Counted from the first letter of the stretch, positions 24,161 through 37,832 are shown. The stretch: 64,000 nt of DNA from Acidobacteria bacterium Mor1 (GCA_001664505.1 CP011806.1:5814152-5878151); one strand, 5' to 3'. The notes: generated by a model not told the origin, from the sequence alone. Made by a program: numbers and translations.

Positions 24161-25363
24161 ATGGCGGACATCACGATCTACACCCGGGACTTCTGTGGGT
24201 ACTGCGTGCGGGCCAAGCGCCTGCTGGACACCAAGGGAGCCTCCTACCAGGAGATCAACATCGATCTCGACCCCGCCAAGGCGGCGGAGATGATCGAGCG
24301 GTCCCAGGGGGGCCGCACCGTGCCCCAGATCTTCATCGACGGCGTCCACGTGGGCGGCTCCGATGACCTGGTCGATCTGGATCGCGCGGGCAAACTGGAC
24401 GAGATGCTGCAGCGAGAAGCGAGGAGGCCTGAACCCGTGGAAACCCATGACGTCGTCATCATCGGATCCGGCCCGGCCGGATTGACCTCGGCGCTCTATA
24501 CCGCCCGTGCCAACCTGAAGCCGGTCGTGGTCGAGGGCCTCAACGCCGGCGGCCAGCTGATGAACACCACCGAGGTAGAGAACTACCCGGGGTTCCCCGA
24601 GGGCATCACCGGCCCCGAGCTGATGGAGCAATTCAAGAAGCAGGCCGAGCGTTTCGGTACGGTCTTCGTGCCGGGTGACGCGATCAAGGTGGACTTCTCT
24701 GCCCGGCCCTTCGGTATCTGGACCGATGAGAAGGAGCTGCGGGCCAACGCGGTGATCGTCGCCAGCGGCGCCTCGCCGCTGACCCTGGGAATCACCGGCG
24801 AGGAAGAGTACGCCGGCCGCGGCGTCTCCTACTGCGCCACCTGCGACGGCTTCTTCTTCCGCGATCAGGAGATCGTCGTGGTCGGCGGCGGCGACACCGC
24901 GATGGAAGAGGCGCTGTTCCTTGCGCGCTACGGCAAGCGGGTCACGGTGATCCACCGCCGCGACGAGCTGCGCGCGTCGAAGATCATGGCCGACCGGGCG
25001 CTGGAGCACGAGAAGATCGAGTTCCTCTGGAATTCGGTGGTCGAAGAGGTGGTCGGCGACGGCACCAAGGTGCAGTCGCTCAAGGTCAAGAACGTGCAGA
25101 CCGGTGAGGTGATCGACCGGGAGTGCGGCGGCTTCTTCGTCGCCATCGGCCACACCCCCAACACCGAGATCTTCAAGAGCGTGCTGCCGATGGAAGAGAC
25201 CGGCTACCTCAAGCTCGAGCAGGGCTCCAAGAGCAATATCGAGGGGGTCTTCATCGCCGGCGACGTCCACGACCACACCTACCGCCAGGCGGTCACCGCT
25301 GCGGGCTACGGCTGCCGCGCAGCGATCGATTGCGAGCGCTGGTTGGAGTCCCAGGGGCGTTAG
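24161..25363 (+). CDS. glutaredoxin-thioredoxin reductase fusion protein
   Basis: A 400-residue natural fusion. Residues 1-84 are a GrxC-type glutaredoxin: FCGYC with C12/C15, TVPQIFI, HVGGSDDL. A short linker (85-95) leads to a complete low-Mr thioredoxin reductase: FAD motif GSGPAG 102-107, YCATCDG with redox C225/C228, NADPH motif GGGDTA 242-247, and GVFIAGDV near the C-terminus. NADPH electrons could be passed from the reductase dithiol directly to the fused glutaredoxin instead of, or besides, a separate thioredoxin. Length and motifs of both halves are intact and no frameshift separates them. ATG 24161 has AGGAGG about 10 bases upstream. Confidence 0.95.
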   Translation: MADITIYTRDFCGYCVRAKRLLDTKGASYQEINIDLDPAKAAEMIERSQGGRTVPQIFIDGVHVGGSDDLVDLDRAGKLDEMLQREARRPEPVETHDVVIIGSGPAGLTSALYTARANLKPVVVEGLNAGGQLMNTTEVENYPGFPEGITGPELMEQFKKQAERFGTVFVPGDAIKVDFSARPFGIWTDEKELRANAVIVASGASPLTLGITGEEEYAGRGVSYCATCDGFFFRDQEIVVVGGGDTAMEEALFLARYGKRVTVIHRRDELRASKIMADRALEHEKIEFLWNSVVEEVVGDGTKVQSLKVKNVQTGEVIDRECGGFFVAIGHTPNTEIFKSVLPMEETGYLKLEQGSKSNIEGVFIAGDVHDHTYRQAVTAAGYGCRAAIDCERWLESQGR

Positions 25364-25476: not shown

Positions 25477-26580
25477 ATGAAGCGTCTGCCCTGGCTCGTC
25501 ATCGGCGTGTTGGTCGGCGTAGCGGTCTGGGCCGAGCCAGAACGTGATTGCACCCTCTGCCCCTTCGGCGACCTGCGGCTCCGTCTGGAAGAGGACTGGG
25601 CCTCCCACCGATCCGACGGAACCCTGAGGAAGGACCGGCTCCGCCTGCGGACTCGCGTGCGTCTCGGTGCCCGCTGGGAGGCAAGCCGGCGGACCCGGGT
25701 CGAGCTTCGCGCCCGCGTCGGGGCGGCGGAGGCTCAACAATCTCCTCATGTGACCCTCGAGGACTTTCAAGGCAACCCCCGTGGCGCGGCCGACCTCGTC
25801 CTGGACCGCTGGCAGATCGAGGTCCGGGGGGAACATGGCCGCTGGTCCGTCGGCCGCCAGGCGTTCCCGTTCTGGCGCCCCACCGAGATGACCTGGGACG
25901 ACGACGTGACACCGGCCGGAGTCTCCTACCGGCAGATCGTGGCCGGAGGGGCCGGAAGCCTGCGACTGGGCTACGCGGCACTTCCCGACGGGATGCGGGA
26001 TTTCGACGGAACGCTGCTGGGCGCCCAGTACGTCGATACCCGCAAGCTGGGAGAGCTCCGCTTCATCTCGGCTGGTGGGCTGATGGCGCTGCGCGGCGAT
26101 CATCCTGCGAAGCACTTGCGCCACGGAGACGGGGAGCGGGACTACACACTGTTCACCGCCAGCCTGCGGATTGACGCCCGGCTGGCAGGCCGTGCGGTGA
26201 CCGGCGGGGTCGAGCTGATTCGCAACCTCGAGCGCTACGACGATCCAGCGGATTCGTTCGGCATGGCGTTCGGTGACCAACGCTCAGGCCTGGTCCTGTT
26301 CATCGACTACGGATCCCTGGTCAAGGGCGCATGGCTCTTCGGCTGGCGCTACGCCCATATCGAGGCACTCGCGGTCAACGCCTCGTTTGCCCAGGACGAC
26401 TGGGTTCGCTGGGGCAGCGCCACCCAGGTCGACGCGTCGGATCTGGAGGGTCACGAACTTCGTGTCGGCCGGGGCACCGGACGCCGCTCCAACCTCTTGC
26501 TGCGGGTGTTCACCGTCGACTCCGTAACCTCGGGGCAGGACGGAAACCGCGCCCGCCTCGACCTCAACTACCGCTTTTGA
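25477..26580 (+). CDS. putative porin-like outer-membrane beta-barrel protein
   Basis: A 367-residue exported protein. The signal peptide (1-19, ending VWA) precedes a CTLC pair and then a regular succession of amphipathic beta strands (LRLRLEEDW, LRLRTRVRLGARWEA, TRVELRARVG). The chain ends in the outer-membrane signature aromatic residue (LDLNYRF). This is the pattern of Porin_5/alginate-export-type barrels, though I cannot assign a specific substrate. The start ATG at 25477 has no strong SD. Its last 17 bases overlap the end of the convergent CRTAC1 gene. Confidence 0.7.
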   Translation: MKRLPWLVIGVLVGVAVWAEPERDCTLCPFGDLRLRLEEDWASHRSDGTLRKDRLRLRTRVRLGARWEASRRTRVELRARVGAAEAQQSPHVTLEDFQGNPRGAADLVLDRWQIEVRGEHGRWSVGRQAFPFWRPTEMTWDDDVTPAGVSYRQIVAGGAGSLRLGYAALPDGMRDFDGTLLGAQYVDTRKLGELRFISAGGLMALRGDHPAKHLRHGDGERDYTLFTASLRIDARLAGRAVTGGVELIRNLERYDDPADSFGMAFGDQRSGLVLFIDYGSLVKGAWLFGWRYAHIEALAVNASFAQDDWVRWGSATQVDASDLEGHELRVGRGTGRRSNLLLRVFTVDSVTSGQDGNRARLDLNYRF

Positions 26581-29326
26581 CCAACGCTTCCAGCGCTGCG
26601 GCCGAACGCTTGGACCATCCGCTGTAGATCTCCAACACCTGCCCCTGATCGCTGAGCAGAAGCGTCAGAGGCACAGTCGCCTCACCGTTCGGGTAGAGGA
26701 TGTCCAGTGAGTCGCTGTCGGTCATCAGGACCGGGTACTCCATCCCTTGTCGGGCCACGTAGCCCTGCACGTCCGCAGCGGGATCGACGTCGACACTCAG
26801 CCCGACCAGATCGATTCCGGCCGCGGTGAGTTCGGGGTAGAGATGGACGAGCTCCGGAATCTCCACGGCGCACGGGGTGCACCAGGTGGCCCAGACATTC
26901 AGCAGCATCTTGCGCCCGGGACGCAGCGTGGCCTCGAGCGAGCGCGGCTGTCCGCCGAGATCCCGCAGCTCGAGTCGCGGAAACGTGGCCCCGGGCCGGA
27001 TGCCGAGCCGGGCCAGCATTTCCTCGCGATCGCCCAGCGGGTCGGGGAGGGTGCCCGAAGGGGGGGCGACCCGCTGGAACCCGTTCTGGCCTTCGGTCAG
27101 CCGGATCGTGGTGTCAATCGGGAGGTCGGTCAGCGTCAGGGATTCACCGCCGGGCCAGGCGACCTCGAGCCGGGCGACTTCGGTCTCGTCTCCCAACCCG
27201 AACAATAGCCGCGGGTCGTGCTGGGAAAGAAAGCCGCTCCCGCCGGCCTTGACCTTGGTCTGGATGCCGTGGGCGGTATGCACACGCACGATGGCGCCGA
27301 AGGCGTCGCGGCCACCGCTGCGACCCTCCAGCTCGACCCGCAAGAAGTGGCGGTCGCTGCCGACATTGTTGCGGAACAGGTAGTGCGCCTTGCGCTGGGC
27401 CGAGACGAGGAAGATGTCGCTGTCGCCGTCGTTGTCGAAGTCGGCGAACACCGCGCCTCGGCCGTCGGAGATCGAGTCGACGCCGCTGATTCCGGAGATG
27501 TCGAGGTAGCTTCCATCCCCCATGCTGAGCTTGAGCATGTCCCGCTCGAATCCGCTGAAGGAGAAGCCCTTCTTGAAGATCGTCCCCATGTGATGGTTGT
27601 GGTACGACTCGCCGCCCGCTTGCTCCTGTTTCTCTTCGGCTGCCACCACGTGGCGCCAGAAGAGGCTTCACGTGTCCTTCATCGTCTTGCCGGAGATGAA
27701 GCCGTTGGGCGAGTAGAGGTCTTCCCAGCCGTCGTTGTCGAAGTCGACGAAACCGCCGCCGAAGGCCCAGCCTCCGGAGATGCCGCCGATATCCCGGGTC
27801 ACGTCGGTGAAGCTGCCGTCCCCGTCGTTGCGGTAGAGGCTGTTGCCTGCGGCCTGTTTGCCCAGGGTCTTGCGAATCTCGTGCTCCTCCGGGTAGAGCA
27901 TCGACAGGATCCGATTGCCGGCGGTTGACGACATATTGGTGACCTGCAGGTCGAGATCGCCGTCGTTGTCGTAGTCGCCGAAAGCGACCCCCATGCCGAA
28001 ACCCGGGTCGACGACCCCCGCCTCCCCGGCGACATCGGTGAAGCGCCCTCCCTCGTTGCGGTAGAAGGCGTTCTCGCCGAAGTCGTTGGCGACGTACAGG
28101 TCCTGGTCGCCATCGTCGTCGTAGTCCACGAACCCGGCGGAGTAGCTCCATCGTGCGTCGGCGACCCCGAGGCGCTCGGCGGCTTCTTCGAATCGCCCGT
28201 CTCCGAGGTTGATGAACAACCTGTTGGGCGTGCCGTTCTCCGCCTGGTACCAGGAATCGGGCATCACCGTGCCGTAGCGGTTGTACGAGCTGACGTAGAT
28301 GTCGGTGAGGCCGTCCAGATTGACGTCGGAGGCGAGGGCGCTGAAGCCCACGGCTGGTTTGTCGACCCGAGCCTCCTCGGACACGTCCCAGAAAACGAGA
28401 TCCCCGTCGGGGATGAGCCGGTTTTCCAGCAGCATCTGGTTGCCGACGGCGGCGAGGAACAGATCCTGATCGCCGTCGTTGTCGTGATCCAGGAACAGGG
28501 CGCCGGATCCGATCGGCGCGCTTCCGACCAACGACTCGCGGCTGACGTCGGTAAAGGTGCCATCGCCGGCGTTGAGGTAGAGCCGGTTCCGTTCGACGCC
28601 GGTGACCGCCAGGTCCAGCAGCCCGTCGCCGTTCACATCGGCGACAGCCGCGCCGTGAGATACGAAGCCCTGGTTCCGCCCGACGCCGAAGGGCGGGAAC
28701 ACGCAATCCAGCCCGGCGGGGTAGGCCACTTCGCTGAAGAGGTCCACCGCGGCCACCTTGGACATCAGGCTGTCGGGGACGAAGTGCCGGATCTGCCAGA
28801 CCGCGTCTTCGCCGGACTGCCGGACCACCTCGATGTGCGCGGTGCCCTTGACCCACTCCCGGCGCCCCTGCTCGTCGCGGGCCACCAGGAAGAACTTGAT
28901 CTGCGCCTGTCCCTCGTGCCCGGAGTCAGCGAACGAGGAGTGCTTGACCTTGAAGCGGGCGTCTTCGATCGATTGGAAGCGGCCGACGAGGCTCTCCAGG
29001 CGTTTCAGCGCTTCGTCCCGGTCGAGGGCTTCGGTCCCGGTGCCGAGGTGCCAGGGGCGCTCGAGCACCCACTTCGTCTTGAGCTTCGCTTCCGGAGCCG
29101 GCGGGATTGCTGCCATCGTCACCGATTCGGCCCAGTAGCCCCCGAGGGTTTCGTAGTCCCGGTCCCGGACCGTGACCGACATGGCGAGCAGATCGTTCGC
29201 CAGCGCTTCGGCAAGGTCCTCGTCCCGCTCGAGGCGGTCGCGATCGAACGAGCCGGGTCCCGAACCACAGGAAGCAAGCAGCGGGATGAGGAGCAGGCCG
29301 GCCGTGATGAAAAAGCGAATGTTCAT
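26564..29326 (-). CDS. candidate selenoprotein: CRTAC1/UnbV-TlpA lipoprotein with in-frame UGA
   Basis: I read one 920-residue frame with a single TGA (27670-27668, codon 553) as selenocysteine. A lipoprotein signal (LLASC, C20) leads to an NTF2-like segment (about 30-190). FG-GAP/VCBS repeats with DxDxDG calcium loops follow (about 215-550, DYDDDGDQDL, DFDNDGWEDL), then KTMKDT-U-SLFWRHVV and another calcium loop (DFDNDGDSDI). An ASPIC/UnbV domain (about 660-730) and a TlpA-like thioredoxin domain with WATWCTPC (Cys 816/819) complete it. Both halves are in the same frame and together make the normal CRTAC1 architecture. A SECIS-like hairpin starts 3 bases after the TGA. Read conventionally it would be two genes: 552 residues, then a frame from GTG 27649 lacking RBS and signal peptide. 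Probably extracytoplasmic redox function. Confidence 0.75.
27632..27664 (-). promoter_or_regulatory. putative bacterial SECIS element
   Basis: On the minus strand, 3 bases after UGA, CUCUUC pairs with GAAGAG (6 bp), a U is bulged on the 5' side, GGC pairs with GCC, an A is bulged on the 3' side, and GCCAC pairs with GUGGC around a GUG apical loop. That is 14 base pairs in 33 nt. The loop G is 18 bases after the UGA. This fits the described bacterial SECIS pattern: a stem-loop within about 16-37 nt of the UGA, a G (often GU) at the start of the apical loop, and a bulged U on the 5' side as in fdhF. Confidence 0.65.
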
Positions 29327-29671
29327 GGGGGCAATCTACCGGCTCGACCGGAGAGGTGACGACCGGCTCGGGGTGCCCAATCGCCCCGGGAAGGTCCGGA
29401 ATGAGACGGAAGCGGTTTCGGAGGGGGCAACTCCCCGGGTGCAGTGATGCCGGCCGCAAAAGCCGGTTTCTGGGGGAAAGTTCGCCGGAAACTGCCTCAG
29501 CGGCACCGCCCGGGTTGACTTGCGTCAAGGGTCACGGTAAACGTCGGGGGAGCCCGTGTGGGCCCGAGGGGTCCCGAGTCGGCAAACCCCCTAAACCCTC
29601 CGGGTGGACGATGAGTCTGAGGGGGTGAGGTTTGGAGGGGGATGCTCCAGACCCGTAGACCTGGGGGGGAC
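29327..29671. other. divergent intergenic region with RNA-like secondary structure
   Basis: 345 bases without a gene, between the CRTAC1 gene (leftward) and the DUF1800 operon (rightward). TTGACTT at 29515 could be a -35 element. Several hairpins are visible: GGGG/CCCC around GCAACT near 29425; CCGGC-CGCAAAA-GCCGG near 29451-29467; and a long one in which CAAACC+CCCT (about 29583-29592) pairs with AGGGG+GGTTTG (about 29620-29635) just before the operon. This could be a leader RNA or attenuator. It does not match a riboswitch class that I can name. Confidence 0.4.
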
Positions 29672-31570
29672 ATGGGGAACTCAATCCGGGCGTCGCTGCC
29701 CGTCCTGTCTTTGTTGCTGGTCGCGTCGCTGAGCTACGGAGCGCCGCCCGGTGAGGTCACCGGGATCGGTTTCAGCGGCAAGGATCTGTTGCAGTGGTCC
29801 GCGACCACCGGAGCCGACGACTACAACGTCTACCGTGGCTCCACGTCCCAGCTCGCGAGCGTCGGTGCCCGCTGTCATGGCGACGAGATCGCGGTGCTCC
29901 AGTTCAATACGCCTGCGATACCCGAGCCGGGCGCTTCCTTCTACTATCTGGTGACCGGAGAGTCCGACGTCGACGGAGAGGGGAGCGCCGGCTCCCAGTC
30001 CGCGGGACCTGCCCGCGAGACCCTCGGTCGTTGCGATACGGTCATGCGCAACCACGTGCTCAACCGCAGCGGCTACGGCTGGGATGAATGGAGCGAGGAC
30101 CGCCTGGCCACCCTGGGCACGGCGGCCTACCTGGCCGAGCAGCTCGACCCCGCCTCCATCGACGAAGGGTCCAACACCGAGCTTCAGTCAAGGCTGACCG
30201 ACATCGGCCCGCCGGACCGGGTGGAAGACCTCCAGGCGATCGCCATCGTGCGCGCGGTCTACGCCCGGCGGCAACTCGAGCAGCAGACGGCGCTGTTCTA
30301 CTCGAACCATTTCACGACCCAGTACCAAGAGGTCTACAACTTCTTCAACGTCTACAACCCGGATCTGGTGCGCCGCCGGCTCGAGGCGACCACCCTGCAG
30401 GCCCGTGACGAGGACACGTTCCGGGACCTGGGCTTCAACGGCAACTTCCGGGAGATCCTCGAGGAAGGGGTCGTCGGCGCTTCGATGATCCTCTACCTGG
30501 ACAACGACAACAACGTGGTCGGCCGGCCCAACGAGAATCTCTCCCGGGAGGCCCTCGAACTGCATTCCATGGGGGTGGACAACGGCTACACCCAGCTGGA
30601 TGTCGAGGAACTCGCCGAGATCCTGACCGGCTGGAACGTGTGCAAGAAGGAGACGCCGGACATCGACGATCCGCTGGCGCCCTGTATCCCACGCAATTTG
30701 ATCGGCACCCCCGGGGAGCCCGCAGGGGCCTGGGTGCGCAACTTCAGGGTCGACCAGCACGACTGCAGCCAGAAGACGCTCTTTCTGGGCACGCCCTACG
30801 AGACGGTGATTCCGGATACCTGCGACGGTCTGGGCGATCCGACCTCGGCAGGGGAGGACGACCTCTACCTGGCGCTGGATGCGATCGCCGACCACCCCTC
30901 GACCGCCGAGTTCATGTCGACGAAGTTGCTCAAGCGCTTCGTCAGCGAGTCGCCGACCCAGGCGATGATCGACTCGGTGATCGCCGAGTGGAACGACGAC
31001 ACCCACCCGGCCGGCCGGGGGGACCTGCGGGAGGTGCTGCGCGCGGTGATCGAGCAGTCCGCGTTCCTCGATCCGGACCAGGCCGGCAGCAAGATCCGCA
31101 CGCCCTTCGAGCATGTGGTCGCGGTGTTTCGCGGGATGCGGGGCCAGACCAACGGGGCCAACACCGTGGCCGGCTACATGAACCGCCTCCAGCACGTGCT
31201 CTATCGCAACGCGTCGCCCGACGGCTATTCGGAGCTCGGCGGCGACTGGATCGGTACGACCAACCTGTTGGAACGGCAGAACTTCGGCCTGGATCTCACC
31301 GAGAGCATCTTCATCAATCCGGACTTCTCCGAGCGGATCATTCCGCTACTCAACGACAACGGCATCTCGACCGCCCCGGGCAACGCCGAGGCGATCGTCG
31401 AGTTTTTCAGCGACAAATTGTTCGGAGGCGCATTGACGGTCATGGAAAAGCAGGCCGCCGTCGACTACCTCAACACCGATGAGTTGGGGCAGACGACGCC
31501 GTACAACGACGCGCGCATCCGCGAGACGATTGGCTTCATGACGGGTTATCCCCAGTTCCTGGAACAGTAG
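29672..31570 (+). CDS. DUF1800 family exported protein (first copy)
   Basis: A 632-residue exported protein. ATG 29672 (MGNSIRAS) after a purine-rich GGGGGGGA stretch gives a signal peptide to about residue 24. Residues 25-115 are the Cys-bracketed 'DDYNVYRG…FYYLVTGE…GRCD' module found in other exported proteins here. The rest (about 120-632) is a DUF1800 domain with the usual blocks LAEQLDP, WSNHF-like FYSNHF, NFREILEE, NENLSREALELHSMGVDNGYTQ.DV.E.A..LTGW, F.STKLLKRFVS and TAPGNAEAIVEFF. DUF1800 proteins are almost always paired with DUF1501 proteins, as here (9 bases downstream). Biochemical role unknown. Confidence 0.9.
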   Translation: MGNSIRASLPVLSLLLVASLSYGAPPGEVTGIGFSGKDLLQWSATTGADDYNVYRGSTSQLASVGARCHGDEIAVLQFNTPAIPEPGASFYYLVTGESDVDGEGSAGSQSAGPARETLGRCDTVMRNHVLNRSGYGWDEWSEDRLATLGTAAYLAEQLDPASIDEGSNTELQSRLTDIGPPDRVEDLQAIAIVRAVYARRQLEQQTALFYSNHFTTQYQEVYNFFNVYNPDLVRRRLEATTLQARDEDTFRDLGFNGNFREILEEGVVGASMILYLDNDNNVVGRPNENLSREALELHSMGVDNGYTQLDVEELAEILTGWNVCKKETPDIDDPLAPCIPRNLIGTPGEPAGAWVRNFRVDQHDCSQKTLFLGTPYETVIPDTCDGLGDPTSAGEDDLYLALDAIADHPSTAEFMSTKLLKRFVSESPTQAMIDSVIAEWNDDTHPAGRGDLREVLRAVIEQSAFLDPDQAGSKIRTPFEHVVAVFRGMRGQTNGANTVAGYMNRLQHVLYRNASPDGYSELGGDWIGTTNLLERQNFGLDLTESIFINPDFSERIIPLLNDNGISTAPGNAEAIVEFFSDKLFGGALTVMEKQAAVDYLNTDELGQTTPYNDARIRETIGFMTGYPQFLEQ

Positions 31571-31579
31571 GAGGTTTCG

Positions 31580-32995
31580 ATGCAACACAAAAGCACGTGC
31601 TCATGCTCACGGCGGCACTTCCTGCGAGGATCCGGGCTGACTCTGGCCGGCTTCGGCGCGGCGTCGCTCTTCCCCACCCCGCTGATCCAGAGCGCCATGG
31701 CCGGCAATCTGGAGAACGCGAACAAGCGCATGCTGTTCTTCTTCCTGCGCGGGGGTAACGACGGGATCAACACGCTGATCCCTCACGGCGATCCGGACTA
31801 CAACACCACCAACCGCCCGAACCTCTACATCCCCAACACCTCGTCGATCGATCTGGGCAACAGCTTCGCCCATCTGCATCCGGCGATGGCGGACGTGATG
31901 CCGATGTTCGACGACGGTGAGCTGGCGATCCTGCACCGGGTGGGTTACCCGAACACCAGCCGCTCCCATTTCGACGGTCAGCGGATCTGGGAAAACGGCG
32001 ACCCGACCCAGCCCCAGATGTTCGAGGGTTGGTTGGCCCGCTACATCGCCGAAAACGCCCTGGCCAGTGGTGCGCCGATTCCGGTGATCACCTCCCAGGT
32101 CACGCCGCCGCTGATCCTGCGGGGCAACGAGAAGTTCGTCAATATCGCCAACCCGGACCAGTTCGACTACCTGGACGACGATCCGAACCGCTCGAAGTAC
32201 GCCAACGCCTGGCGTTCGGTGTTCACCGACCTGGTCGGCCTCGAGCAGTACCGGCCGGTGCTGTCCCAGACCGGCGTCAAGCTGGTCGACACCCTCGACG
32301 AGTACCGTTCGTGGGATCAGGAGAACTGGCGCCCGATGGACCCGGACAACCCGACCGACGAGTTGTTCCCCGTCGACGACCAGGCGATCCCCCACAGCAA
32401 GGGTTTCGCCGCCGAGTCCTACGCCTTCTTCCGCTCGCTCAAGATCTGCGCTCTCTCGCTGCTCGAGAGCGACGGTTCCAGCAACGGTACCCGCATCGCC
32501 GGTTCCCAGCTGGGCGGCTTCGACCTGCACGACAACCAGGTGCAGAACGGCAACCCCACCGGCGGTCGCCACGCGGAACTGCTCTCCTGGCTGGCCTACG
32601 GCATGCGCTCCCTGCGCATCGTGTTGAGCGGCGCGGCGATCGACACCCGCACCTATCCCAACATCTGGGCCGACACGATCATGACCACCCTGAGTGAGTT
32701 CGGCCGCACCAGTATCCAGAACGGAAGTCTGGGTAGCGACCACGCGGCGTCCACCGTCGTCTTCGTCGGCGGCGGCGGAGTCAACGGCGGGGTCTACAAC
32801 TGCGACGCCGGGACCTGGCCTGCGGGCATCATGTTCGGTGACAGCGGCCGCTACCTGCCCGAGCGCACGGACTACCGGGCGGTCATGTGGGAGATCCTGC
32901 GGGACCACATGGGTGCCAGTCCCGCGGGTCTCGAGTCGATCTTCCCCGGCTACACCGCCGGCGGCCTGGGTGCCCAGGAGCTGGGAATCGTCTGA
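31580..32995 (+). CDS. DUF1501 family protein with Tat signal
   Basis: A 471-residue protein. The N-terminus SCSRRHFLRGSGLTLAGFG is a twin-arginine signal (SRRHFL), so it is probably exported folded, perhaps with a metal. The DUF1501 body shows FFLRGGNDGINTLIP, LHPAMADVMPMFDDGELAI, NTSRSHFDGQRIWENG, GGFDLHDNQ and LSEFGRTSIQNGSLGSDHA. The latter resemble alkaline-phosphatase/sulfatase-superfamily metal sites. ATG 31580 follows AGGAGG of the inter-gene gap. The stop TGA 32993-32995 overlaps the ATG of the next gene (TGATG), indicating coupling. It is the obligate-looking partner of the DUF1800 protein. Confidence 0.92.
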   Translation: MQHKSTCSCSRRHFLRGSGLTLAGFGAASLFPTPLIQSAMAGNLENANKRMLFFFLRGGNDGINTLIPHGDPDYNTTNRPNLYIPNTSSIDLGNSFAHLHPAMADVMPMFDDGELAILHRVGYPNTSRSHFDGQRIWENGDPTQPQMFEGWLARYIAENALASGAPIPVITSQVTPPLILRGNEKFVNIANPDQFDYLDDDPNRSKYANAWRSVFTDLVGLEQYRPVLSQTGVKLVDTLDEYRSWDQENWRPMDPDNPTDELFPVDDQAIPHSKGFAAESYAFFRSLKICALSLLESDGSSNGTRIAGSQLGGFDLHDNQVQNGNPTGGRHAELLSWLAYGMRSLRIVLSGAAIDTRTYPNIWADTIMTTLSEFGRTSIQNGSLGSDHAASTVVFVGGGGVNGGVYNCDAGTWPAGIMFGDSGRYLPERTDYRAVMWEILRDHMGASPAGLESIFPGYTAGGLGAQELGIV

Positions 32996-35889
32996 TGAAA
33001 CAGCTGCTGCAGTACAGCGTGATGCTCCTGCTGGGAGCCACGCTCTGGGCCCAGGAGCCACGGATCGAGGAGGTGCGCCCGGGGGTGCTCCAGACCGACG
33101 CCGCCACCGTGCTGGAGCTGGCAGGGGCCGACCTGGAGGCCGACGGACATCTGAGCCTGCTGGACGGCGGGCCCTACGAGGTCGGCAACCTGTTGATTCC
33201 GAGCGGCATCAGCGGGGTCTTCTGTGACGGCTCCAAGGTCTACGTGTCCTTCTACGACACGGTGACCAAGCTCGGCGGGATCCAGGTGCTCGACGTCTCC
33301 GATCCGTCCAATCCCACCGAGATGGGGCGGTTCGAGCTGGGCGATTCGGCCAGCAGCGTCGTCGTGCGCGACGGCTACGCCTTCATGCCGTTCCTCAACC
33401 CCTACACCTTCATCGGCGGGATGCACGTCGTCGACGTGCAGCAGCCCGAGACTCCGATCCGGATCGAAACCTACAACACTCTGACGAGTCCCCAGAGCAT
33501 GGCCTTCCGCGATGCTCTGGTGTTCATCGCCGACAGCAGCTCGGGGCTCCAGATCATCGATGTGTCCGATCTGGCGGCGCCGGTGCTCGCCGGTAGTGCC
33601 GACACCCCGGGGATCTCCTGGGATGTGGCTCTCGCCGGCGATCTGGCCTTCATCGCCGACGGTTTCATGGGCCTGCAGGTGGTCGACATCTCCGATCCGA
33701 CGGCGCCGTCGGTGGTCGGCGGCTACACGCCGGCCGGCAGCTTCTCCTTCGGGGTCGCCGCCAGCGGAGACACGGTCTACCTGGCGGACTTCGCCAACGG
33801 GCTCCTGGTGCTCGATGCCTCGAACCCGGCCGCGCCGGTCGAGATCGGGCGCTTCGCCACCCCCGAGGGAGCGACCGGAGCCACCGTCAACGGTTCAAAG
33901 CTCTACGTGACCGACGGCCTCGGCGGTTTGCACGTGCTCGATATCTCCGAGACCACGGCACCTCGCTGGCTCGGCGGCTACAAGCCGAGCGGTTCGTCGA
34001 GCTTCATGTTCGGCGTCGAGGTCGAGGGGGATCTCGCCTTCGTTACCGACACCCAGAACGGGCTGCGCATCGTCGATGTGCGGCGCCCGTCGGCTCCCGC
34101 TCCGGTCTGGCAGGTGCCGTCCGCCGGCGAGTCGCTGGATGTGGCGGTCGCCGGCGACCTCGCGTTGGTCGCCGACGGCGCTGCGGGACTCGCGGTATTC
34201 GACCTGACGGCGGAGCCTGCAGTCGAGATCGCTCGCCTCGCCACGGCGGGGTCGGCTCAGGGGGTCACCCTCGAAGGGGACCTCGCGGCGGTATCTCTCG
34301 GCAGTTCCGGGGTGGAGTTGATCGATGTGAGCGATCCCTCGACGCCTGCTTCGTTGGGGCGTTGGGATACCTCCGGATCGGCGATGGCGGCGGAGATCGT
34401 CGGTGATTTCCTCTACGTGGCCGACGACCGCCGCGGATTGCAGATTGCCGATATCTCGGCACCGGCGCTACCGCTGCGCATCGGTGGATTCGATACCCGT
34501 GGCCGGGCGCTGGACGTGTTGATTGCCGGCGGCCTGGCCTACGTGGCCGACGATAACCGGGGCGTGCGGGTGATGGATATCTCCGACCCGACGGCACCCC
34601 GGGAAATCGGTGATGTCTCGACTCCCGGCCGGGCCAGCGGGCTCGCCCTGCTGGGCGATCTGCTGCTGGTTGCCGACCGCAGCCGCGGGCTGCAGGCGAT
34701 CGACGTGTCCGATCCGACGTCGCCGGTGGTGCTCGGGGACTTCATCGGTGAAGACCGGGCCTCGGCGGTTGCGGCCGCCGGTGATCGAGTGCTGCTCTCC
34801 GATGGACTGAACGGCGTCAAGCTCCTCGACCTGGCCGATCCCGCGTCACCGAGGTTGCTGGCGGCCCACGAGACGCCGGGGCGCGCCGGCGGCGTGGCGT
34901 TGTTCGCCGACGGTTCGTTGCTGGTGGCCGACGGTGTGCAGGGGCTGCGCCGCGTCGCAGCCCAGCCGGTTCCCGGCGAGCTGCAGGTGACCGCCGACGG
35001 GATCTCCGCCGAGGTCCCGGCGGGTCTTCCCAGCGGTCCCTACGACGTGATCTACGAGGCAGCCGGGGGCGCGACGGCTGTTGCGGCCAACGCGGTCGTT
35101 GCTTGCGGCGGTGGAACGCTGCTGTCGGGACTGACTCCCCGGGCGCTTCCCGGGCTTCCCATCGATTGGTATCTGGAGGTCAGTTCCGGCCGCGATCTGG
35201 GGAGGCTTTCCGCCCGGGCACTGCTGCCCGACGGAGATCTCTCCACCGACCCGGTGTTCGTGGCGACCCAGGGTCCCTCGACCATCGATCTGGTCGAATC
35301 CTCCGACGGCTGGGTCGTGCGCCTCAGCGGCGCCGATGAGCAGGGCCTGCGCGCCTTGTGGACCCAGGTGGCCGGTTCGGGCGGGTTCCCCCTGGAAGCT
35401 GCTCCGGACGGCAGCTTCGGGCCGGTCGCGGTGCAGGACGGGCTACCGGGGGGTCCGGTGCTGATCGAGCCGATGGCACTGGGCGCCGGCGCGCTGCCCC
35501 TCCAGCTCGAGGGGCCGGCCACGGCCTACCGCTTCCGCCTTGACGAAAGCGGCCGACTGGTGGCCGCCGGCATGCGCGGTTCCGACACCGATCTGCTGTT
35601 CGAACTGTCGGCAGGGGAGGAGCCCTGCCGCGCCGCCAACCTCCGTTCGTGGAGAGGAGCGGTCTCGAATTACTGTCGTCAGTCCGATCCGATGGATCTG
35701 GCTCGGCGGCGGCTGTGCGGTGGTCCCCTGGTGGGACGTCCCGACGGCCGTCTGGCTCCGCTCGACGACACCGGCGACCGGCCGGTGCCGGTGGGTGGGT
35801 TGAATCCCGAGGGGGCGCCGGATCCGCGTCATCCCGGTGACCGAATCAAAACCGACCGACTGCGGTCCCTGGACTCGGCGAAACGCTGA
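32995..35889 (+). CDS. exported LVIVD-repeat (beta-propeller-like) protein
   Basis: A 964-residue protein, ATG 32995 overlapping the DUF1501 stop. The signal peptide (1-19, LLLGATLWAQ) is followed by a short IPT-like start and then about 13 LVIVD repeats of roughly 42 residues (about 75-690). Each has the core GLQ[VI][VI]D[VI]SDP..P..[VL]G and ends with a strand such as LAFIADG. This family is thought to fold into beta-propellers used at the cell surface. The C-terminal approximately 250 residues are not repetitive and contain a few cysteines (EEPCRAAN, NYCRQSD, RRLCGG). It lies between two DUF1800 genes in the same operon. Ligand unknown. Confidence 0.88.
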   Translation: MKQLLQYSVMLLLGATLWAQEPRIEEVRPGVLQTDAATVLELAGADLEADGHLSLLDGGPYEVGNLLIPSGISGVFCDGSKVYVSFYDTVTKLGGIQVLDVSDPSNPTEMGRFELGDSASSVVVRDGYAFMPFLNPYTFIGGMHVVDVQQPETPIRIETYNTLTSPQSMAFRDALVFIADSSSGLQIIDVSDLAAPVLAGSADTPGISWDVALAGDLAFIADGFMGLQVVDISDPTAPSVVGGYTPAGSFSFGVAASGDTVYLADFANGLLVLDASNPAAPVEIGRFATPEGATGATVNGSKLYVTDGLGGLHVLDISETTAPRWLGGYKPSGSSSFMFGVEVEGDLAFVTDTQNGLRIVDVRRPSAPAPVWQVPSAGESLDVAVAGDLALVADGAAGLAVFDLTAEPAVEIARLATAGSAQGVTLEGDLAAVSLGSSGVELIDVSDPSTPASLGRWDTSGSAMAAEIVGDFLYVADDRRGLQIADISAPALPLRIGGFDTRGRALDVLIAGGLAYVADDNRGVRVMDISDPTAPREIGDVSTPGRASGLALLGDLLLVADRSRGLQAIDVSDPTSPVVLGDFIGEDRASAVAAAGDRVLLSDGLNGVKLLDLADPASPRLLAAHETPGRAGGVALFADGSLLVADGVQGLRRVAAQPVPGELQVTADGISAEVPAGLPSGPYDVIYEAAGGATAVAANAVVACGGGTLLSGLTPRALPGLPIDWYLEVSSGRDLGRLSARALLPDGDLSTDPVFVATQGPSTIDLVESSDGWVVRLSGADEQGLRALWTQVAGSGGFPLEAAPDGSFGPVAVQDGLPGGPVLIEPMALGAGALPLQLEGPATAYRFRLDESGRLVAAGMRGSDTDLLFELSAGEEPCRAANLRSWRGAVSNYCRQSDPMDLARRRLCGGPLVGRPDGRLAPLDDTGDRPVPVGGLNPEGAPDPRHPGDRIKTDRLRSLDSAKR

Positions 35890-35912
35890 CCCGCAGGTTG
35901 GGGGCAATCTTG

Positions 35913-37832
35913 ATGCACAAGACTTCGAACTATCTCTTCGTCCTGCTGGCGCTCTCGGTCGCCGTTTCGGCGGCCGCCCAGGTTCCCGGTGAGGTCACCG
36001 GGCTGCAGATCGACGGCAGCGGCACCCTGACCTGGGATGTCACCGTCGACGCCGATGACTACAACGTGTACCGGGGATCCCTCGCCGGCCTCGCTGCGGG
36101 ACAGCCGCTGCGTTGCCACGGAGACGAGATCGTCGGCACCAGCTTCCTCAGCGCCGAGAATCCGGCTCCGGGCCAGGCTTTCGGCTACCTCGTCACCGGC
36201 GAGGGCGCCGGCGGTGAAGGCACGCCGGGCAACTCCCAGGGGAGTGAGCGCTACATGGGAGGCCTCTGCGACCCGGTGATGAGCCATCACATGCAGCTAC
36301 GCCTGGGTTACGGCCTCGACGAATGGACCGAAAGCCGCATGGCCGCCCTGGGCCTCGACGCCTACCTGGCCGAGCAGCTCGACCCGGCGTCGATCGACGA
36401 GTCGACCAACACCACCTTGAACGACCTGTTGGCGGTGCTGGAGCCGCCGGACTCTCACGTCGAGTACTTCCAGAGCCGGATCGTGCGCAGCGTGTTCGCC
36501 CGCCGGCAGTTCGAAGAGCAGGTGACCGCCTTCTTCGACAACCACTTCAATACCGACTTCTTCGAGGTGTTCGGCTACTTCCTCGGCATCTATCCGCCGT
36601 GCAACGACCAGGGACAACCGCCCTGGTGCGACCCGGACTACCCCAACGAGGCGATCCGCGTCGGCGCGATGCAGCAGTTCAACGACAGCTTCGCCTACCG
36701 GGACATGGCCTTCAACGGCAACTTCCGGGACATGGTCGAGCAGATGTCCCTCGGTCCGGCGATGATGATCTACCTCGATACCATCGTCAGCACCGGCGGC
36801 AACCCCAACGAGAACTTCCCCCGGGAGTTGCTCGAGCTCTACATGATGGGGGTCGACAACGGCTACACCCAGACCGATGTCGAGGAGCTATCCCGGGTGT
36901 TCACCGGTTGGCGCGTTTGCCAAAAGGCCCTGGCCAACCTGGACGACCCGCTGGCTCCCTGTCAGGCGTTCTACTGGATCGAGACCGGCGACTGGACCGC
37001 CAACTTCGATCCGACCCTGCACGACTGCACCGCCAAGACCCTGTTCTCGGGAACGCCCCACGAGACCTTGATCCCGGACACCTGTGACGGGCTGGGGCAG
37101 CCCACCGCCGCCGGCGTCGACGATGTCTACCTGGCTCTCGACGCGATCTTCGACCATCCGTCGACGGCGGAGTTCATCTCGACCAAGCTGCTGCAGCGCT
37201 TCGTCAGCGAGAACCCGACCCAGCCGATGATCGATGCGGTGGTCGCGGTGTGGAACGACGGCGGCAACCCTGCGGGTATCGGCGACGTGCGCGCCGTGTT
37301 GACCGAGATCATGGCCCAGGGGCTGCTGAACCCGGATCTCGCCGGCTCCAAGATCAAGACTCCCTGGGAGCACGTTTCCAGTGCGTTGCGGGCGACCCGC
37401 GGCAATACCGACGGGATCTCGGTGCTGCTCGACTACATGACCCGCATGGGCCATCTGCCCGGATTCAACGACGTGCCGACCGGTTTCGCCGAGGACGGCG
37501 CGGCCTGGATCGGAACCAACAACATGCTGGAGCGCCAGAACTACGGCCGCATCCTCGGGTTCTACGATCCCGTCAGCCTGCCCGAGTTCAACAGCGACGT
37601 GATGGGCCTGCTGTCGGATAACGGCATCTCGACGGCTCCGGGGAACGCCGAGGCCATCGTCAATTTCTTCATCGATCGCTTCTTTGCCGGATCGGTGACC
37701 GAAGCGGAGCGCCAGCTGGCTGTCGACTTCCTCAACACCGATCCCGACGGGGTGCCCAGCGACTACGACGAGGCCCGCATCCGCGAGGTGGTCGGCCTGC
37801 TGCTCGGCTACCCGCACTTCATGGAACAGTAG
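35913..37832 (+). CDS. DUF1800 family exported protein (second copy)
   Basis: A 639-residue paralogue of the protein at 29672. ATG 35913 gives a signal peptide ending AAAQ. Residues 23-115 hold the same 'DDYNVYRG…CHGDEI…FGYLVTGEG…GLCD' module. The DUF1800 body has LAEQLDPASIDE, FFDNHFNTDF, NPNENFPRELLELYMMGVDNGYTQTDVEELSRVFTGW, FISTKLLQRFVSENPTQ and STAPGNAEAIVNFF. Compared with the first copy it has a cysteine-bearing insertion (YPPCNDQGQPPWCDPD) near residue 235. It is the last gene of the operon, with a strong terminator 12 bases after the stop. Confidence 0.9.
   Translation: MHKTSNYLFVLLALSVAVSAAAQVPGEVTGLQIDGSGTLTWDVTVDADDYNVYRGSLAGLAAGQPLRCHGDEIVGTSFLSAENPAPGQAFGYLVTGEGAGGEGTPGNSQGSERYMGGLCDPVMSHHMQLRLGYGLDEWTESRMAALGLDAYLAEQLDPASIDESTNTTLNDLLAVLEPPDSHVEYFQSRIVRSVFARRQFEEQVTAFFDNHFNTDFFEVFGYFLGIYPPCNDQGQPPWCDPDYPNEAIRVGAMQQFNDSFAYRDMAFNGNFRDMVEQMSLGPAMMIYLDTIVSTGGNPNENFPRELLELYMMGVDNGYTQTDVEELSRVFTGWRVCQKALANLDDPLAPCQAFYWIETGDWTANFDPTLHDCTAKTLFSGTPHETLIPDTCDGLGQPTAAGVDDVYLALDAIFDHPSTAEFISTKLLQRFVSENPTQPMIDAVVAVWNDGGNPAGIGDVRAVLTEIMAQGLLNPDLAGSKIKTPWEHVSSALRATRGNTDGISVLLDYMTRMGHLPGFNDVPTGFAEDGAAWIGTNNMLERQNYGRILGFYDPVSLPEFNSDVMGLLSDNGISTAPGNAEAIVNFFIDRFFAGSVTEAERQLAVDFLNTDPDGVPSDYDEARIREVVGLLLGYPHFMEQ

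Follow-up and report, generated by a model that had tools for sequence, protein, structure and literature searches.

The locus considered here raises the question of whether an in-frame TGA in the middle of a gene of Acidobacteria bacterium Mor1 ends a protein or encodes selenocysteine (Sec) and, in the latter case, what a Sec residue might do in a protein of this kind. Within the window (the whole stretch of 64,000 nucleotides analyzed, CP011806.1:5814152-5878151), the open frames 29326-27668 and 27649-26564 of the minus strand are in one and the same frame, as the first-pass annotation had noticed, with the TGA (27670-27668) and the codons for SLFWRH between them. Reading this TGA as a residue indeed yields the continuous lipoprotein that had been proposed (920 aa, the sole other TGA being the gene end), and the suggested domain order is borne out by Pfam matches to FG-GAP, UnbV_ASPIC and AhpC-TSA/Redoxin, as well as by the motif WCTPC (Table 1). 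The candidate Sec residue lies 263 residues upstream of WCTPC and, thus, outside the thioredoxin motif.

Table 1. Features of the putative selenoprotein gene, in window coordinates.
Feature	Position	Strand	Basis
Full CDS, 920 residues, putative Sec at 553, terminal TGA 26566-26564	26564..29326	-	Translation and full-length UGA homologues (47-63% identity)
Signal peptide with lipobox LLAS-C (Cys20)	29267..29326	-	Translation read directly
FG-GAP (integrin-like) beta-propeller with DxDxDG calcium loops	27377..28654	-	Pfam PF13517/PF01839, AlphaFold2 model, murine CRTAC1 9etn
Putative Sec-UGA codon, residue 553	27668..27670	-	TGA at the aligned site in 103/124 fully read homologues
Extended bulged hairpin with lower stem CUCUUC/GAAGAG	27632..27664	-	Folding; comparison with relatives
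Conserved SECIS core, stem of up to 6 bp, loop C-GUG-G	27640..27656	-	5.6/6 pairs on average, compensatory changes, recoding null
Ser591, often Ala or Asn in sense homologues	27554..27556	-	99% conserved with Sec
UnbV/ASPIC domain	27104..27304	-	PF07593, 64.4 bits
TlpA/ResA-like thioredoxin domain	26618..26992	-	PF00578/PF08534; ResA/TlpA structure matches
TlpA active-site motif CTPC (Cys816, Cys819)	26870..26881	-	CxxC in 85/91 UGA vs. 2/21 sense homologues

Codon-position GC is alike on either side of the TGA (0.67/0.43/0.88 before vs. 0.68/0.45/0.85 after), and both halves are, therefore, coding. A comparison with four homologues revealed that third-position changes dominate both upstream and downstream of the TGA, so the part beyond it is selected as protein. 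The surroundings of the gene include a convergent putative porin (Porin_5; 25477-26580, plus strand), whose end overlaps that of the putative selenoprotein gene by 17 bases, adjoining divergent DUF1800, DUF1501, LVIVD-repeat and second DUF1800 genes (29642-37832, plus strand), and an ORF starting MADITIYTRDFCGYCVRAKRLLD with a glutaredoxin-like N terminus (24161-25363, plus strand). Clustering of the flanking ORFs of family members returned no conserved operon, only scattered neighbours (e.g., sulfatase-like genes) and many antisense artefacts.

The first-pass annotation had asked whether a TGA recurs at this site elsewhere, and it does so widely. A search for relatives returned the full-length protein at 48-63% identity, each with a single in-frame TGA at the same aligned site, and a profile search of named genomes yielded 80 loci, most of them with TGA at the site, spread over Acidobacteriota, Planctomycetota, Verrucomicrobiota and one Latescibacterota genome. 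Further members come from a sample of 149 Planctomycetota genomes, where most matches likewise carry TGA at the site. TGA occupies the site in 103 of 124 fully read homologues (the other 21 have a sense codon) and in more than 100 genes in all. An in-frame UGA at a conserved site, with conserved coding on both flanks, is the pattern of a selenoprotein gene, and we are apparently dealing with a large undescribed selenoprotein family of three major bacterial phyla.

Four subfamilies are distinguished by the motif around the site: A (KDT-U-SLFWRHVVA), which includes the window gene; B (DL-U-SFFWRQVVS), with C-terminal TPR repeats in many members; C (PDG-U-TCLWRAVVT), which has no TlpA domain; and D (PD[YFW]-U-T-x-[FY]-WR), found in Planctomycetota as tandem arrays, with a maximum of nine matches in one genome. 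For instance, several subfamily D UGA propeller genes, each with CxxC, lie within about 17 kb in the planctomycetotal loci L216 and L217. The host genome itself carries a second UGA member (L039, G000:C1:3999793-4001049), of subfamily C, with the motif U-T-C, no TlpA domain and a well-paired SECIS stem. One homologue, L219:304-2094 (plus strand), has extra in-frame TGAs 21 and 25 codons past the Sec site, which may reflect multiple Sec residues, a frameshift or gene decay.

A hairpin had been described immediately behind the UGA of the window gene. It folds as claimed, with the GUG of its loop beginning 18 nt past the UGA, and its conserved part is confined to the core given in Table 1, the lower CUCUUC/GAAGAG stem being unconserved; the two outermost pairs of the core are replaced in this gene by the longer bulged stem. 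Taken alone, the window hairpin is unremarkable (z -0.19 vs. shuffles; 101 of 2000 synonymous recodings are equally stable), and the window had no Rfam match at gathering score. It is the comparison across the family that is telling. In subfamilies A and B the core reads G-C-G-N-C-A, loop GGUCG (in most members) or CGUGG, U-G-N-C-G-C, with the loop beginning 17-18 nt past the UGA; subfamilies C and D have a shifted, yet well-paired stem, within which U-A changes to C-G between L039 and L037. All subfamilies retain a stem-loop behind the UGA. Among 79 distinct homologues, an average of 5.61 of the six stem pairs form vs. 3.62 in a null in which each gene's own synonymous codons are shuffled in (z 18.4; 0/300), and the stem energy amounts to -9.6 kcal/mol vs. 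-5.0 kcal/mol after recoding (z -17.9). The compensatory changes that had been called for are also found: pair 17-27, between the wobble position of an Arg codon and the opening base of a Ser, Thr, Ala or Pro codon, can form in 74 of the 79 distinct sequences (GU 30, CG 17, AU 14, UA 8, GC 5), as compared with 40 on average and at most 53 upon column shuffling. Covariation is informative mainly at this one pair because the short stem overlaps codons of a strongly conserved motif. Thirteen sense homologues exhibit no excess of stem stability over synonymous recoding. The published bSECIS constraints (PMC13188914) are satisfied by 81/81 UGA members, but also by 10 of these 13 sense homologues and, hence, make a weak test on their own; the recoding null combined with compensatory pairs is a stronger SECIS test than this loose model.

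The machinery for Sec decoding, which had been named as a check, is encoded in the host's own genome (a single contig of 5.985 Mb, 99.98% complete), with selA at 442.6 bits, selB at 330 bits, selC at 72.7 bits and selD at 358 bits. The host SelD is itself a Sec protein (in-frame TGA within SCAGUASKMGP), and Sec decoding is, therefore, very probably in use. Across genomes, the family tends to accompany selA. In Planctomycetota (149 genomes sampled, 37 with the family), selA is present in 36/37 vs. 70/112 others (Fisher 1.4e-5, kinship ignored), while in 199 Acidobacteriota genomes it is present in 23 of 25 with a UGA gene, 5 of 10 with sense homologues only and 102 of 164 without the family (kinship ignored here as well). 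The UGA-bearing genomes in which selA was not found are two of Acidobacteriota (75% and 91% complete) and one of Planctomycetota (G327). The homologue in the latter (G327:C36:100371-101549) has one TGA and two TAG codons and looks like a gene decaying after the loss of Sec. In two related Acidobacteriota the association extends to the locus: in one, selA is the next gene behind the UGA propeller gene and has the same orientation (L182:7919-9340, plus strand), and it lies a few kilobases past that gene in the other (L183:11325-12767, plus strand). A fragment at a contig end (L173) suggests a third case of adjoining selA.

These observations bear directly on the simpler accounts of the TGA. It could be an ordinary stop that splits the gene (a broken gene, or two cistrons of which one would be a TlpA domain without a signal peptide), in keeping with the use of TGA as a normal stop elsewhere in the genome, recorded in the first-pass annotation, and with a GTG at 27649 from which the downstream ORF might start, though no ribosome-binding site is seen ahead of it. 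We consider this scarcely credible given a UGA that recurs at the same codon position in more than 100 genes of at least three phyla, protein conservation on both sides with third-position-biased changes past the UGA, continuous ORFs of relatives in which the same codon holds other residues, and the SECIS and selA association. A UGA read as some ordinary amino acid, through near-cognate suppression or reassignment and with no part for selenium, would suit the tolerance of several residues at the site in relatives; it is nonetheless a very improbable reading of a UGA that occurs once per gene at a single position, ahead of a SECIS-like stem with compensatory changes, in genomes where selA-D are present and associated. 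An error of sequencing or assembly for TGG or TGC is ruled out by the recurrence of the same TGA across many independent assemblies, complete and near-complete ones included. That the in-frame TGA encodes Sec is strongly supported by the comparative sequence data, to the point of near certainty.

The homologues with a sense codon offer a hint as to what the residue is for. Cysteine, which was expected at the site in Sec-less homologues, is not there: 0 of 26 sense homologues have it in a search that covered Acidobacteriota, Planctomycetota and the named genome collection, the residues found being Ser (7), Gln (4), Ala (4), Asn (3), Arg (2), Gly (2), Met, Glu, Asp and Leu. Taken by themselves, these homologues would resemble the refuting case named in the first-pass annotation (a sense codon other than Cys and no hairpin); they do not refute Sec in the others because they are few and have undergone a joint decay of SECIS, CxxC and Ser591. 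Indeed, 85 of 91 UGA members have an intact TlpA CxxC vs. 2 of 21 sense members (L038 and L199; Fisher 2e-14, kinship ignored). Among UGA-bearing members it is degraded in L128, L140, L141 and L142, and an aligned CxxC is absent in family C, L220 and L225. Ser591, 99% conserved alongside Sec, is replaced by Ala or Asn in roughly half of the sense members, most independent losses included, and in an Acidobacteriaceae-type sense clade the calcium-loop residues D282, D284, D286 and D637 are changed too. The tree shows about five changes between Sec and sense, and CxxC or Ser591 tracks Sec in approximately 3.7-3.9 of five independent events and never in the opposite direction, a tendency that falls short of significance because five independent pairs are too few. 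The redox partnership of Sec with TlpA that had been surmised gains indirect support from the disappearance of the TlpA CxxC from most Sec-less homologues, and the joint loss of Sec, CxxC and Ser591 in most cases suggests a Sec/TlpA redox relay, which we deem likely. Sec does not appear to be simply exchangeable for Cys, since Sec-less sites drift to other residues and the remaining redox apparatus decays.

The same homologues have a bearing on another account, according to which Sec is inserted mainly as a selenium-dependent switch, with translation stopping before UnbV and TlpA when selenium is lacking and the residue itself being non-catalytic. Both the many non-Cys residues accepted at the site and the proximity of the gene to selA in some genomes would fit such a switch; we find it unlikely, as CxxC and Ser591 are often lost too in sense homologues, as expected if a chemistry had been lost, and changes between Sec and sense are rare (the aforementioned five or so events).

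Returning to Sec as a catalytic residue, the AlphaFold2 model (pLDDT 90, pTM 0.90) has the CRTAC1 fold, an FG-GAP propeller followed by UnbV, and places Sec at the start of a short helix (553-562) within an insertion of the propeller. In the mechanism we propose, UGA 553 would be decoded as Sec by the cell's SelA/SelB/SelC/SelD, steered by the stem-loop 17-18 nt downstream, and the product would be exported as a lipoprotein. Its selenolate, borne by one of the loops of a calcium-binding beta-propeller of the CRTAC1 type, may be the reactive group of a periplasmic oxidoreductase, with Sec reacting with the substrate and then being re-reduced by the C-terminal TlpA-like domain (CTPC), and with Ser591 probably near Sec. 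This plan would be common to families A, B and D; in family C, which is devoid of TlpA, U-T-C may provide its own resolving Cys. We regard the explanation as a whole, i.e., Sec at 553 inserted via the SECIS into a propeller oxidoreductase re-reduced by TlpA, as very probable. A further-reaching reading, that these are widespread exported propeller oxidoreductases in need of selenium itself, for which Cys would be unacceptable in any lineage and loss of Sec would mean loss of the enzyme function (TlpA relay, Ser591), strikes us as about evenly poised.

Several known systems share features with the putative selenoprotein and differ from it in others. The FG-GAP calcium loops and the UnbV domain are those of CRTAC1/ASPIC-UnbV proteins, and the model shares the fold of murine CRTAC1 (PDB 9etn) over 448 residues (Z 44.1, rmsd 2.2, 24% identity). 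In a sequence profile, nothing in the CRTAC1 chain aligns with the Sec loop. CRTAC1 is not known to have a TlpA domain or Sec. In E. coli fdhF, the SECIS presents G-G-U-C in the loop of a short stem at some 18 nt past the UGA, and the element described here is similar in these three respects, while differing in stem sequence and lower stem and residing in a gene for no formate dehydrogenase. The C-terminal WCTPC domain, with its ResA and TlpA structure matches, resembles TlpA/ResA thiol-disulfide oxidoreductases, from which it differs by its fusion behind a putatively Sec-bearing propeller. Models of TlpA-type selenoproteins (e.g., NF041054, WAxxUGC) scored far under cut-off, and assignment to that type (WAxxUGC, UGC-TlpA) was rejected, the active site here being WCTPC with Sec outside it. 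The thioredoxin-motif bacterial selenoproteins (PMC13188914) share with this family a UGA with a downstream bSECIS, a redox domain in the same protein and a SelA/B/C/D-dependent decoding, which for our family is proposed from the genome sequences; here, however, Sec would sit in a propeller loop, its motif is D[TL]-U-S-x-[FY]-W-R instead of UxxC/CxxU, and no Cys homologue was found. The family thereby departs from the Sec/Cys-paired thiol oxidoreductases in having no Cys homologue among the 26; such homologues are a common selenoprotein trait and no requirement for membership.

The family appears neither in NCBIfam 20.0 nor among the 119 prokaryotic selenoprotein families catalogued in 2026 (PMC13188914), and the literature searched contained no paper linking selenoproteins with UnbV, CRTAC1, FG-GAP or a propeller; an overlooked mention in subscription papers or supplementary tables is conceivable. 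An earlier, unrecognised listing is possible among the Planctomycetes P1/P2 selenoprotein candidates in a supplementary table of PMC4807772. Nearly all selenoproteins have Cys homologues, according to a 2026 review (PMC13188914), and the authors of deep-Sep point out that their method may miss those that do not (PMC12013277). Methods based on the pairing of Sec with Cys would miss the present family because none of its 26 sense homologues has Cys, and its omission from the catalogue would be explained by the dependence of most search methods on Cys homologues.

Overall, the family represents a large example of this blind spot in selenoprotein discovery, and it would bring into the selenoproteome a propeller fold that is new to it, together with a suggested reaction for which Cys is no substitute. 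In these phyla, many FG-GAP/UnbV genes have probably been recorded as truncated or split proteins. If selenium itself is indeed obligatory for these enzymes, the family, which reaches nine paralogues in a genome, would rank among the main consumers of Sec in many Planctomycetota. A plausible reason for the retention of Sec machinery by many such bacteria is this very selenoprotein family.
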